Assembly: GCA_006218045.1 (NCBI GenBank)
Contig: VBWB01000006.1
Span: forward strand, 62,001 to 126,000
DNA length: 64,000 bases
Source: Stygiobacter sp.
Lineage (GTDB): Bacteria; Pseudomonadota; Alphaproteobacteria; Rhodospirillales; Magnetospirillaceae
Direction: 5' to 3'
Part shown: in pieces, positions 25,431 to 32,543 of the stretch
How the letters are laid out: each line of letters begins with the position of its first letter
Position numbering within the stretch: position 1 is the stretch's first letter
Notes under the pieces: generated by a model
Seen by the model: the letters and a program-made list of their open reading frames with translations, nothing else
The model's database searches: none
What the model was told of the DNA's origin: nothing
Made by a program: the position numbers and the translations under genes

Positions 25431-25592
25431 GACAAGTCCCTATGACAGATAAAGACGGGCTAAGCCTACCCCAAGCAAGGCTGCGGCGAAAGGCGGTTAC
25501 GGCAAGGCAGACCAGCAAGCCCTAAGGTTGCCCCCATCGGCAATCTGTGGCACCGTCCGCTAACCAAAAGCAGTAAAGGGGGGAGAAACGAA

Positions 25593-26867
25593 ATGAGCGT
25601 TTCCAACGATAATCTGAGCGTCAACCCCCGCCTGCGCCGCACCTTGGCCCTGGTCCTGGCCGGCGGGCGCGGATCGCGCCTGAAATCGCTGACCGACTGG
25701 CACGCCAAGCCGGCGGTGCCGTTCGCCGGCAAGTTCCGCATCATCGATTTCGCCCTGTCCAACTGCATCAATTCCGGCATCCGCCGCATCGGCGTGCTGA
25801 CCCAGTACAAGGCCCACACGCTGATCCAGCATATCCAGCGCGGCTGGGGCTTCCTGCGCGGCGAGTTCAACGAATTCATCGAGCTGTTGCCGGCGCAGCA
25901 GCGCACCGACGGCGAGAACTGGTACAAGGGCACCGCCGACGCGGTGTTCCAGAACCTGGACATCATCCGCGCCCACCACCCGGAATTCGTGCTGATCCTG
26001 GCCGGCGACCACGTCTACAAGATGGATTACGGCAAGATGCTGGCCCATCACCTGGCCGAGGGCGCCGACGTCACCGTCGCCTGCATCGAGGTGCCGCTGG
26101 CCGACGCCAGCGGTTTCGGCGTCATGGCGGTGGACGATGCCGACAACGTGATCCGCTTCGACGAAAAGCCGGCCCATCCCCAGCCGGTTCCCGGCAAGCC
26201 CGACAAGGCCCTGGCCAGCATGGGCATCTACATCTTCAACGCCCAGTTCCTGTACGACCAGTTGAAGCTGGATGCCGACCAAAGAGACACCGAGAACGAT
26301 TTCGGCAAGAACATCATTCCGTCGCTGATCGGTCGCCATAAGGTTCTGGCCCACCGTTTCCAGCATTCCTGCGTCATGCATGACGGCGCGCGCGAACATT
26401 ACTGGCGCGATGTCGGCACCGTCGATGCCTATTGGGAAGCCAATATCGACCTGACCACGGTGACGCCGTCCTTGAACATCTATGACGACAGCTGGCCGAT
26501 CTGGACCTATCAGGCGCAATTGCCGCCGGCCAAGTTCGTGTTCGATTCCGACACCAGACGCGGCATGGCGGTGGATTCCATGGTCTCGGGCGGCTGCATC
26601 ATCTCGGGCGCGGTGGTACGCCGGTCGCTGCTTTACTCCAACGTCCGCGTCAATTCCTATTGCCTAGTGGAAGATTCGGTGGTGCTGCCCGATTGCGATA
26701 TCGGCCGTCACGCCCGCTTGCAGAAATGCATCGTCGACCAGGGCTGCGTCATCCCCCCCGGTCTGGTCGCCGGTGAAGACCCGGCCCTGGATGCCAAGCG
26801 CTTCTATCGTTCGGAATCGGGCATCACCCTGATCACCGCCGACATGCTGAAAAAGCTGGAGGGCTGA
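25593..26867 (+). CDS. glgC: Glucose-1-phosphate adenylyltransferase
   Basis: A 424-residue ADP-glucose pyrophosphorylase. The nucleotide loop is [27 protein letters not shown], followed by [25 protein letters not shown]; the glucose-1-phosphate site is [13 protein letters not shown] and the C-terminal left-handed helix domain is present. It commits carbon to glycogen and in this family is controlled by glycolytic intermediates. GGGGGGAG 7-8 bases before the ATG is a strong ribosome site. It is divergent from glgA-glk and is followed by a dispersed palindromic element. Confidence 0.95.
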
Positions 26868-29533: not shown

Positions 29534-30160
29534 TCACCGTCCCGCTGCCCACGTCACCTTGAAGCCGGCGGCGAAACCGTCGATGACGTCGATGGCGATG
29601 GGGAAATTGGCCCAGGTCCACATTTCGATACCGCCACCCTTGGCTTGGCAGCGCTTTTCCGGCCAGCCCAGGGTATCGATGATCTTTTGCTGGTCGTCAC
29701 CCAGGACCAGACCGGAGAATTTCGCCGGGATCACCATGGGCGGGCCGATCAACTGCACCGCCACCACCCGGCTGTCATAATAGGTGACGACGTAATGGGG
29801 GCGGAGGGCGCCGCGCTGGGCCACCTCGTAAATGCGGCTTTCGCTGAACACCCCCATATCGGTAATGTCCACCGGCGGGCCCAGCAGCTTTTCCACCTGA
29901 TCCAGGGAATCGGAGATTCCGATGGCACCGATGCGCAGACAAGGCAGAAAGGTCACCGGGCTTTCATGCTTGGCCATGGCCGCGCCCTGCTGACTGGAAA
30001 CGGTGCAGCCCAATCCATGTTCGGTGGAATAGCGGAACTGCCCCTCGACCAAGGGCAGGGGCGCCCCCGGCGAGGGCAGTCCCTGCGGCCCCTGACAAGG
30101 GGCGGCAACGGCGGGGGAGGCGGCGGCCAAAACGGCCAGCATCGGGATCAGGTAACGCAT
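29534..30160 (-). CDS. Secreted protein of unknown function
   Basis: A 208-residue protein with a clear signal peptide (MRYLIPMLAVLAAASPAVAA) and a mature part with four Cys. I recognise no family. A region around SLDQVEKLLGPPVDITDMG resembles the short repeat found in SmpA/BamE-type folds, where a small motif G-x-P precedes a strand; GWPEKRCQAKGG shows a similar second turn, so an internal pair of such folds is possible. A much longer frame continues upstream past 30160, but it crosses the small-RNA region and was rejected. It ends against the thioesterase gene. Confidence 0.6.
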   Translation of the reverse strand: MRYLIPMLAVLAAASPAVAAPCQGPQGLPSPGAPLPLVEGQFRYSTEHGLGCTVSSQQGAAMAKHESPVTFLPCLRIGAIGISDSLDQVEKLLGPPVDITDMGVFSESRIYEVAQRGALRPHYVVTYYDSRVVAVQLIGPPMVIPAKFSGLVLGDDQQKIIDTLGWPEKRCQAKGGGIEMWTWANFPIAIDVIDGFAAGFKVTWAAGR

Positions 30161-30300
30161 AAGGCGAACCTTACCAAGATTTAATCCCCCCGCAAGACTG
30201 GCGTAAGGTGGTTGGCGACAATATGTCTTCAACAACGGTGATGAACCGGGCCAAGACGGAAACAGCGCTCCTCGTCGAAACCCTTCGTCACCCAGGCGGT

Positions 30301-30440
30301 CCTTGAACTCCTCCGCCGACCGGGAAAGCGGCCTGTCCCCCCAGGTTTTGCTCCCACACTTCGAGACCGGTTCTCCCCCCTGCCGGTCGAACGGATGACG
30401 CCCCCGCAGCTTCCCCCCTGGCTGCGGGGGCTTTCCGTTT
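30301..30440 (+). ncRNA. Candidate small RNA with three C-rich stem-loops
   Basis: Between a minus-strand gene (ends upstream at 30160) and a plus-strand gene (30491) there is no coding frame, yet a strong plus-strand terminator is present. Three stem-loops follow in order: CCTG/CAGG with loop TCCCCC (30332-30345), GACCGG/CCGGTC with loop TTCTCCCCCCTG (30365-30388), and GCCCCCGCAGC/GCTGCGGGGGC with loop TTCCCCCCTG (30400-30431), then TTTCCGTTT. CTCCTCC lies at 30308-30314. Each C-rich loop could pair with Shine-Dalgarno sequences, as in known C-rich-motif riboregulators. The 5' end is uncertain; it may lie as far up as 30200. Confidence 0.6.
30400..30440 (+). terminator. Rho-independent terminator of the candidate small RNA
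   Basis: An 11-bp perfect stem (30400-30410 with 30421-30431), a 10-base loop, then TTTCCGTTT (30432-30440). There is no T-run on the minus strand, so it acts on plus-strand transcription, although no plus-strand protein gene lies upstream within 860 bases. Confidence 0.8.
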
Positions 30441-30490
30441 GATGGGGGCCACGTTAAGGTCACCTTGCTGGTAACGCGGAAGGTCCGGTC

Positions 30491-31168
30491 ATGCGCATTC
30501 TGATCATCGAGGACGACCAAGAGGCCTCGGCCTATCTGGCCAAGGGACTGAAAGAGGCCGGCCATACCGTCGATCAGGCCCATAACGGCAATGACGGCCT
30601 GTTCCTGGCCACCACCGAACGCTACGATGCCATGATCGTCGACCGCATGTTGCCCGGCGTCGACGGCCTGACCATCGTCCAGACCATCCGGGGCGCCGGC
30701 AACACCACGCCGGTACTGATCCTGTCGGCTTTGGGCAAGGTCGACGACCGGGTCAAGGGATTGAAGGCCGGCGGCGATGATTATCTGGTCAAGCCCTATG
30801 CCTTCGCCGAACTTCTCGCCCGTATCGAGGCCCTGGGCCGGCGCACCAGCGCCAGCCAGCCGGAAACCCGCCTCAAGGTGGAAGACCTGGAAATGGATTT
30901 GCTGGCCCGCACCGTCACCCGATCCGGTCGCGACATCGATCTGCAACCGCGTGAATTCCGCCTGCTGGAATATCTGCTGCGCCATGCCGGTCAGGTGGTC
31001 ACCCGCACCATGCTGTTGGAAAATGTCTGGGAATATCATTTCGACCCCCAGACCAATCTGATCGACGTCCATATCAGCCGGTTGCGGCAGAAGGTGGACA
31101 AGGATTTCGACCAACCCCTGATCCATACCGTTCGCGGCGCCGGATACACCCTTCGTGCCGCCCGCTAA
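30491..31168 (+). CDS. OmpR-family response regulator
   Basis: A 225-residue regulator. The receiver has IEDDQEA, the phospho-acceptor Asp in YDAMIVDRMLPGVDG and Lys in DDYLVKPYAFAEL. The winged helix contains DLQPREFRLLEYLLRHAGQVVTR and NLIDVHISRLRQKVD. The type resembles the CusR/CopR/QseB-like group. It overlaps the sensor kinase gene by 14 bases. The short upstream space (30441-30490) holds the small palindrome AAGGT-C-ACCTT (30456-30466), a possible autoregulatory site. The targets are unknown. Confidence 0.92.
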   Translation: MRILIIEDDQEASAYLAKGLKEAGHTVDQAHNGNDGLFLATTERYDAMIVDRMLPGVDGLTIVQTIRGAGNTTPVLILSALGKVDDRVKGLKAGGDDYLVKPYAFAELLARIEALGRRTSASQPETRLKVEDLEMDLLARTVTRSGRDIDLQPREFRLLEYLLRHAGQVVTRTMLLENVWEYHFDPQTNLIDVHISRLRQKVDKDFDQPLIHTVRGAGYTLRAAR

Positions 31169-32543
31169 TCTGCACTTGCCGCCCTTGCTGCGCGCCACCA
31201 CCTTTCGCTTGGCGCTGTCTTACCTGGGCATCTTCACCGTCTCGGCGGTGGCCTTGCTGGCCCTGGTATCGTGGAGCACCTCGGTCTTCATCGAATGGCA
31301 GGTGCAGGAGACCGTCGAGGCCGAGGCCACCGGCCTGTCCGAGCAATACCGCGAGCGCGGCATCCGTGGGCTGGCCGAGGTCATCGCCGGACGCGCCGGC
31401 CAGGATCTGGACCGCCGCGCCGTCTATCTGCTGTCGGGGCCGGGTGGCGTGCGCATCGCCGGCAATTTGTACGGCTGGCCGGCGGAAAGCATCGATTCCG
31501 CCGGTTGGATCCGCTTTTCCATCGAACGCATGGGCTCCGAGGCCTTCGGCACCGAGGTCCTGGGCCGCACCTATGTCCTGCCCGACGACCATCAATTGCT
31601 GGTGGGCCGCTCGCTGCACGAAGCCAAAAGGGTCAAGCTGGCCATCAACCGCGCCCTGGGCTGGGGACTGGCCCTGACCATCCTGCTGGGCATCATCGGC
31701 GGCTATTTCACCAGTCGCCACCTGCTGCAACGGGTCGAGGCCATGAACCGCACCGCCCGGCGCATCATCGGCGGCGACATGAAAAGCCGCATGCATCTGA
31801 CCGGGGCCAGGGACGAGTTCGACCAACTGGCCGCCGGCTTCAACGAGATGATGGACGAGATCGAGCGGCTGGTGGAAAGCATCCGCACCGTCACCGACAA
31901 TGTCGCCCACGATCTGCGGACCCCGCTCAACCGGCTGCGCTCGCGCATCGATGTGGCGCTGTTGTCCGACGAAGACCCGGCCAGCCTGCGCCGCACGCTC
32001 GAGGAAACCTTGGCCGAGGCCGACGAAATCCTGGCCACCTTCAATGCCATCCTGACCATTTCCAGCGCCGAATCGGGGCAGCGCCTGCACAGCTTCGAGC
32101 CGCTCGACCCGGCCCGGCTGGCCGAGGACATCGCCGAACTGTACGAGCCCTTGGCCGAGGAAAAAGGCGTCGCCCTGACCTGCCACACCCAAGGCGGGGC
32201 CACTGTGGATGGCGACCGCCACCTGTTGTTCCAGGCCTTGGCCAACATGGTCGACAACGCCGTCAAGTACACCCCCGCCGGCGGCACGGTCGCGGTCAGC
32301 GTCACCCGCCAGGATGGCGACGTCACCATCACCGTGGCCGATTCCGGCCCCGGCATCGCCGCCGACCAGCGCGCCCGCGTGCTGGAACGCTTCGTCCGTC
32401 TGGACGCCACCCGCTCGACCCCCGGCAACGGATTGGGCCTGTCGCTGGTCAACGCCGTCGCCCGCCTGCATGGCGCCACCTTGGACATGGACGACAACGC
32501 CCCCGGCCTGATCCTCAGCCTGCATTTCACCGCCAGGGCATAG
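31155..32543 (+). CDS. Membrane sensor histidine kinase paired with the OmpR-type regulator
   Basis: A 462-residue kinase starting at GTG 31155, inside the regulator gene. Two membrane helices (about 19-40 and 167-187) bracket a periplasmic domain of about 125 residues of unknown ligand. HAMP follows, then HisKA with His252 in DNVAHDLRTPLNRLRSRID and HATPase with ANMVDNAVKYTPAG, DSGPGIA and GNGLGLSLVNA. It is of the type that pairs with OmpR-family regulators, and the gene order makes the upstream regulator its partner. The protein ends close to a repeated TAGGAGATTGCCC. Confidence 0.92.
   Translation: MPPANLHLPPLLRATTFRLALSYLGIFTVSAVALLALVSWSTSVFIEWQVQETVEAEATGLSEQYRERGIRGLAEVIAGRAGQDLDRRAVYLLSGPGGVRIAGNLYGWPAESIDSAGWIRFSIERMGSEAFGTEVLGRTYVLPDDHQLLVGRSLHEAKRVKLAINRALGWGLALTILLGIIGGYFTSRHLLQRVEAMNRTARRIIGGDMKSRMHLTGARDEFDQLAAGFNEMMDEIERLVESIRTVTDNVAHDLRTPLNRLRSRIDVALLSDEDPASLRRTLEETLAEADEILATFNAILTISSAESGQRLHSFEPLDPARLAEDIAELYEPLAEEKGVALTCHTQGGATVDGDRHLLFQALANMVDNAVKYTPAGGTVAVSVTRQDGDVTITVADSGPGIAADQRARVLERFVRLDATRSTPGNGLGLSLVNAVARLHGATLDMDDNAPGLILSLHFTARA

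Follow-up and report, generated by a model that had tools for sequence, protein, structure and literature searches.

What is encoded directly upstream of an OmpR-type regulator/kinase gene pair in this Stygiobacter sp. window (the whole 64,000-nucleotide stretch that was analysed, which lies in contig C46 of the 62-contig, 4.33-Mb genome G000)? A sequence-only reading had proposed a small RNA of anti-Shine-Dalgarno character and had left open whether it acts in trans or is a leader of the operon. As sequence features, the small RNA, the character of its loops and the neighbouring pair were all borne out, and the evidence leans clearly to a separate gene: window positions 30216-30436 (+) most probably form a small RNA gene in their own right, ~220 nt long, whose five hairpins carry C-rich loop motifs. 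The range given in that reading was too narrow; the promoter begins near 30170, and the RNA probably occupies the whole of ~30216-30436.

Anatomy of the RNA locus

The predicted RNA and its hairpins are as follows:

30216..30436 (+): predicted small RNA, ~220 nt; start placed by the -10 element and end by the terminator
30239..30290 (+): hairpin 1 domain (H1); inner stem 30255-30276 around GCGCTCC, outer stem TGATGAA/TTCGTCA
30295..30317 (+): hairpin 2 (H2); stem GGCGG/CCGCC, loop TCCTTGAACTCCT
30322..30355 (+): hairpin 3 (H3); variable stem, loop TCCCCC at 30336-30341
30365..30388 (+): hairpin 4 (H4); stem GACCGGT/GCCGGTC, loop TCTCCCCCCT at 30372-30381
30400..30431 (+): hairpin 5 (H5), the intrinsic terminator; 12 pairs, loop of 8, TCCCCCCT, followed by a T-rich tail

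The loop motifs of the five hairpins are GCGCUCC, GAACUCC, and three of the UCCCCC type. The three C-rich stem-loops first proposed are real and correspond to H3, H4, and H5, the last being the plus-strand terminator that had been claimed; the count, however, is five hairpins rather than three, and the CTCCTCC that had been noticed upstream (30308-30314) sits inside a fourth, H2. A terminator scan returned one more site, nested within the H5 stem; shuffled sequences gave 0.9 such sites on average, and the scan taken alone is thus not beyond chance. A covariance model built from 28 loci (R1) matched window positions 30247-30440 (contig C46:92247-92440) with 155 bits.

Folding was more stable than expected (z = -3.32 for 30261-30445), and the minimum-energy fold of the window copy exposed CTCC or CCCC in four hairpin loops, four rather than five because part of the H1 motif was paired; dinucleotide shuffles (n = 60) averaged 0.77 C-rich loops, and none reached four. 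Across 45 homologous sequences, the mean was 4.0 C-rich hairpin loops (range 2-5) versus 0.75 in shuffles, with all five present in the minimum-energy folds of 13, and the median fold z was -4.2, falling below -2 in 41 of the 45. The excess of C-rich loops is weaker for copies taken one by one, as in L069_2000, where 10% of shuffles reached the observed number.

Covarying stems and fixed loops

Conservation of the stems in relatives had been named beforehand as a test of the small RNA reading, and in a 13-sequence alignment they covary: the stems change with compensating substitutions while the loops stay fixed. In this alignment of g16 sequences (A3), the five-hairpin structure was paired in 91.2% of cells, and two-sided changes occurred at 14 of 34 pairs, a number reached by none of 500 shuffles. 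When pairing partners were slid by 1-3 columns, pairing fell to 37-55%, a comparison biased towards the structure, whose pairs were taken from one member of the alignment. Most of the covariation is owed to H1, H3, and H4, since the H2 stem is invariant within A3 and so provides no test there, and H5 varies in one pair only, with a compensatory CG to UA change in two of the 13 sequences. The H1 inner stem covaries across the 13 sequences and H4 shows changes on both sides at six of nine aligned pairs; H3 was paired in 72-82% of cells, a value that partly reflects misalignment.

RNAalifold on all 28 sequences recovered only the H1 core, H2, and H5. Applied to the six closest relatives, it revealed two-sided exchanges in H3 (CG to UA at columns 86/99) and in H4 (columns 122/145 and 123/144 of alignment A4, in which the L004 row lacks 8 bases at its 5' end and has 8 extra at its 3' end); H1 was not recovered among these six, its region being paired elsewhere. 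Minimum-energy folds likewise paired the H1/H2 regions otherwise in at least four of 30 sequences (L012, L020, L023, and L027). Over the 28 sequences, GCGCTCC was invariant and the C runs nearly so.

Distribution and gene copies

A BLASTN search with 30251-30450 gave matches in 31 of 55 Magnetospirillaceae genomes, and the R1 search gave matches in 36 of the 55 at E ≤ 0.01, 35 of them strong, with best E values per genome from 3e-33 to 1e-11; the remaining genome, G014, whose match was weak (E = 0.007), was discounted as a carrier. The carriers comprise every one of the 13 genomes from the window's own genus (g1), every one of the 17 from g16, and five more, representing seven of 17 genera. 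Weak matches left out of the count of 35 had E values of 2e-4 to 0.01 and included, within the family, G014 and second matches in G017, G021, G024, G025, G026, G028, G029, and G033. Beyond the family, three weak R1 matches were found among 297 genomes of the order (G154, G200, and G278), and none except the query among 385 genomes sampled from the class under strict filters. These order- and class-wide searches scored 6-8 candidates per genome in sampled groups, also with strict filters, and the absence outside the family is for that reason not firm. A gapped-pattern scan of named genomes was too loose, as it gave at least 119 matches, nearly all attributable to chance by organism name.

Several of the weak matches were inspected individually. 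L077, one of the three matches from the order, and L078-L080 are apparently ordinary terminators that lack C-rich loops, and L081, with two C-containing loops, lacks a box of the kind described below; all five were rejected. Two loci from family f19, L075:1546-1684 (G278) and L076:1493-1641 (G154), each have three C-rich hairpin loops, where shuffles average 0.68 and 0.47, respectively. Neither has a strong box near the match or the H1/H2 motifs, and they may be analogues or distant kin, perhaps a further small RNA built along similar lines.

The RNA is single-copy in 32 of the 35 carriers and present in ~6-7 copies in the other three (G034, G035, and G041). These genomes had 6, 10, and 7 R1 matches, respectively, with E below 1e-6 for 5, 5, and 6 of them; with the weaker matches that bear the box, one in the first genome (L066), two in the second (L067:2007-2189 and L070), and one in the third (L074), the totals come to ~6, 7, and 7 copies. 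At least one weak match, L068:1557-1725, reads as a plain terminator and was rejected as an extra copy. Two or three copies stand in tandem ahead of the regulator gene (L065, L067, and L072), and dispersed copies lie near genes that by eye resemble gyrB, minD, an XRE-type regulator, and a sensor. Full-length extra copies retain the H2 motif or a variant of it, the C-rich loops, the terminator, and the promoter. Three shortened copies (L066, L070, and L074) have kept the box (scores of 18.9, 21.6, and 14.4) and the terminator C-loop and are missing most of the middle hairpins; they are perhaps decaying or specialised forms.

A conserved promoter box

Two promoter elements were predicted upstream of the RNA:

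30170..30186 (+): predicted regulator-binding box CTTACCAAGATTTAATC, overlapping the -35 position; from the phylogenetic footprint
30204..30209 (+): predicted -10 element TAAGGT; GTAA conserved at a fixed distance from the box in 49 promoters

An ungapped alignment of 49 promoters (32 from single-copy loci and 17 from extra copies) contained the box ATTACCAAA-NN-TTAATC in every sequence, overlapping the -35 position. The full pattern, ATTACCAAANNTTAATC-N6-GAAA-N8-GTAA, holds ~47 bits of information in total, and the best match per promoter ranged from 28 to 66 bits with a matrix trained on those same promoters. The box was the top-scoring site of the 64-kb window (24.8, with the next at 7.5), and its exact core, TTACNAANNNTTAAT, occurs once in the whole of G000, at the RNA promoter; a looser form of the core occurs three times in the genome versus ten times for a reversed control. 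A simple scan found no consensus sigma-70 promoter here, which would suit an activator-dependent promoter. An alternative reading of the promoter as an inverted repeat (ACCTTAC/GTAAGGT) was dropped because the arms, by eye, do not change together across promoters.

The adjacent regulator and its link to DegP

Two genes follow the RNA:

30491..31168 (+): OmpR-type response regulator gene (Pfam Response_reg, Trans_reg_C), putative activator of the RNA
31155..32543 (+): sensor histidine kinase gene (Pfam HAMP, HisKA, HATPase_c), partner of the regulator

The best NCBIfam models for the pair are of the heavy-metal CzcR/CopR and CzcS types, and both score below cut-off (TIGR01387, 270.1 bits against 279.2, for the regulator; TIGR01386, 197.7 bits against 292.55, for the kinase). 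The regulator gene lies directly downstream of the RNA in 31 of the 32 single-copy loci and directly downstream of the tandem copies in all three multicopy genomes, and the kinase gene follows it wherever the locus is long enough to show it. The sole single-copy locus with no regulator after the RNA (L016/L253, G010:C158) has kept the box (25.4).

On the other side of the RNA, a divergent gene (29534-30160, -) encodes a 208-aa secreted-looking protein that had no Pfam match at E ≤ 0.001 and no NCBIfam match at E ≤ 1e-10, and that stands beside the RNA in seven of 31 other single-copy loci. A 555-aa minus-strand frame (29534-31201) was taken to be a chance extension of a shorter gene over the RNA.

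Relatives of the regulator were found at E ≤ 1e-75 in 41 of 120 genomes across the order; 22 loci outside the family were examined, and 19 further listed matches were left aside. The regulator gene follows a DegP/HtrA-type protease gene in 13 of these 22 loci, which are not independent, since several come from one genus; the L232 protease, for example, scored 487.7 bits against an NCBIfam cut-off of 416.2. The other nine have no DegP within the locus, although one of them (L218) is cut by a contig end. With a 17-base matrix made from 28 distinct family sites, the box was found upstream of degP in 12 of the 13 degP-regulator units (13.4-24.7; the exception is L252), at distances that are approximate because the query lacked the N-terminus; in three of the nine remaining loci (L220, L222, and L223; 14.6-24.2) it lay no more than 55 bases from the start of the regulator gene. 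As background, none of 138,184 positions in the 22 loci scored 10 or more.

In 15 of 22 loci, from families in which the RNA was not found, the box thus accompanies the transcription unit of the regulator itself, which is most simply explained if the regulator uses it as its site. We therefore infer that the box is the predicted binding site of the adjacent OmpR-type regulator and that the RNA would be an output of a two-component system that is linked to DegP and probably responds to envelope stress. The envelope-stress label derives from the other families, because the degP homologues of G000 have no box upstream: the best homologue (C54) has no upstream site above 4.1, and the second (C6) has one site (15.8) inside the gene. 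This leaves the RNA gene as the only one in G000 known to have a strong site in its promoter.

A hairpin with a C-rich loop was also seen in the degP 3' region, between the degP stop and the regulator start, in seven of the 13 outside-family loci (L219, L228, L230, L231, L233, L237, and L239). An origin of the RNA from the 3' end of degP is only a lead, because none of the 13 shows the five-hairpin module.

Comparison with known small RNAs

At gathering thresholds, Rfam gave nothing on the window or on sets of 19 and 16 related loci. Individual models also stayed below their cut-offs at the locus: sX13 (RF02232) scored 15.7 bits against 50, alpha-r7 (RF02342) 22.5 against 60, and 6C (RF01066) 24.5 against 47. 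By analogy, the RNA may work like NfeR1 (ar14), sX13, and LhrC, yet it reaches no Rfam cut-off. The comparison first drawn, with RsaE and CcsR, was reasonable, but these three are closer. CcsR shares the feature of C-rich seeds. RsaE, an RNA of Firmicutes, likewise resembles the window RNA in its C-rich seeds (PMC4132741).

NfeR1 of Sinorhizobium meliloti (alpha-r14, RF02344) is described as a set of hairpins with strongly differing stems and the same anti-Shine-Dalgarno motif (PMC10746234), its three identical motifs acting redundantly and independently of Hfq (PMC10746234; PMC8844928). The likeness lies in the same kind of anti-Shine-Dalgarno seed borne on differing stems, with conserved loops and covarying stems in the RNA described here. 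The ar14 RNAs, however, are 115-123 nt with three hairpins bearing CCUCCUCCC, and are regulated by LsrB and NtrC, whereas the present RNA is ~220 nt with five hairpins bearing GCGCUCC, GAACUCC, and UCCCCC, and its predicted regulator is of OmpR type. CCUCCUCCC is absent from the window copy, and with five hairpins rather than three the RNA falls outside the definition of ar14. The ar14 model reached 32.3 bits at the locus, short of its cut-off of 58.8 and with E = 1.8e-4 when 351 bases were searched; it exceeded the cut-off in none of the 55 family genomes. Several of its best matches (up to 56 bits) were at other loci, next to phasin genes, and because ar14 scores as high or higher there, the sub-threshold score at the RNA locus likely reflects convergence.

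These phasin-adjacent loci deserve separate mention. In several Magnetospirillum-group genomes, hairpins with C-rich loops, some of them CCUCCUCCC-like, lie right after a phasin gene (L203:1132-1640, L204:1138-1620, L208 ~1520-1620, and L201 ~1490-1610), the gene being called by Phasin_2 for L203 and L204 and by eye for L201 and L208. A phasin 3'-UTR-derived anti-Shine-Dalgarno RNA is a possible explanation.

The sX13 RNA of Xanthomonas is reported to have three stable stems with apical C-rich loops and to repress mRNAs that carry G-rich motifs near the start, with Hfq dispensable (PMC3771888); it differs in having three loops and 115 nt rather than five hairpins and ~220 nt. LhrC1-5 of Listeria monocytogenes are multicopy, all controlled by one two-component system, LisRK, induced by envelope stress, and furnished with repeated UCCC (PMC4132741). 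The multiple copies, the two-component link, and the repeated C-rich motifs recall the present RNA, for which such control is predicted from sequence; the LhrC RNAs, however, are from a Firmicute, were found with Hfq, and have three motifs in 111-114 nt, whereas the present RNA is mostly single-copy. GsrN of Caulobacter is an alphaproteobacterial stress RNA with an exposed six-cytosine loop as seed, and RNAs like it are typically encoded near their own regulators (PMC5869019); it has one C-rich 5' loop, is controlled by sigma-EcfG, and activates katG, in contrast to the five-hairpin design seen here.

Alternative explanations

If the element did not act in trans but belonged to the regulator/kinase operon as its leader or attenuator, its place directly upstream of the regulator gene in 31 of 32 single-copy loci would be explained. 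The two are set apart by a strong terminator, however, and the dispersed copies in three genomes, like L016, have the promoter, C-rich loops, and terminator without this regulator downstream; a separate gene is favoured because the RNA has its own conserved promoter and terminator and because the dispersed copies keep these together with the loops, and we regard the leader as unlikely. Nor does the locus look like a C-rich terminator region that has no function of its own. Weak R1 matches do occur at ordinary gene-end terminators (L078-L080), and GC-rich terminators can mislead the model, but covariation, invariant loops, a shared promoter, and extra copies are not expected of a spacer, which makes this reading very improbable. 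We give equally little credence to the idea that the transcript is a short mRNA encoding a small protein, or has a dual function: G000 and its closest relative (L003) do have a frame of 27 codons (ATG at 30223), and L018, L019, and L025 share a different one of the same length, but no frame of at least 18 codons is common to the 30 sequences listed, 16 of the 30 have none, and the alignments contain one-base gaps.

The loops might instead titrate a protein that binds C-rich RNA, or G-rich regulatory RNAs, much as CsrB does with CsrA. Many similar loops, in copies multiplied under one promoter box, recall the Csr/Rsm design, with which LhrC has already been compared (PMC4132741). To our knowledge, no protein partner for C-rich loops has been described in these bacteria, which counts against such a sponge. 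The loops are also a direct fit to ribosome-binding sites, and pairing is how the precedents, NfeR1, sX13, and LhrC, work. We therefore consider a sponge rather unlikely and favour a separate gene for an RNA that pairs with mRNAs.

Proposed mode of action and implications

On balance, it is likely that the region encodes a trans-acting small RNA of ~220 nt that is switched on by the neighbouring regulator and whose loops silence mRNAs. In the proposed scheme, the sensor kinase would detect envelope (protein-folding) stress, a kind of stress suggested by other families, in which the orthologous pair is linked to the protease DegP. The OmpR-type regulator encoded downstream would then bind the box at the -35 position and switch the RNA on. 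Each C-rich loop would serve as an independent, largely redundant seed for pairing with G-rich ribosome-binding sites, blocking the translation of several mRNAs, as suggested by RNAs of similar build (NfeR1, sX13, LhrC, and GsrN); if the seeds are independent and redundant, more loops or more gene copies would raise the dose.

The sequence GGGGGGA occurs 3-9 bases before ATG 65 times in G000 versus 12 times for the reversed pattern, an excess that reflects ribosome-binding sites in general. The best candidate within the window was the start of a glgC-like gene (25578-25595, GGGGGGAGAA), which has a perfect ten-base complement to loop 4. As a target, glgC was rejected because the match is not conserved beyond the closest relative, being present among 30 loci only in G000 and in G021 (nine of ten bases).

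The RNA gene is apparently undescribed so far. No description was found in the literature searched, an unnamed mention in supplements or subscription papers being possible; the transcriptome paper on the close relative MSR-1 names one Rfam-predicted small RNA, BjrC80, and in its available text does not name the five-hairpin RNA (PMC9549626).

More speculatively, and with somewhat less than even confidence, we suggest that in Magnetospirillaceae the box of the DegP-linked system shifted from degP to a five-hairpin RNA that had newly arisen, that silencing of many mRNAs replaced or supplemented induction of the protease as the main direct output, and that in one group of species the RNA was multiplied to ~6-7 copies, all under the same promoter. 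If true, an RNA would have taken over the place of a protein in a stress regulon, and the apparent transfer of the box would be an example of regulon rewiring that can be traced. The range from one to ~6-7 copies, and from the three loops of ar14 and sX13 to five hairpins, also raises the question of what repeated seeds buy, be it redundancy, dose, or simultaneous pairing. The finding would add to Magnetospirillaceae, the home of model magnetotactic bacteria, a small RNA family that has no Rfam match and that comes with a candidate regulator and a predicted binding site.
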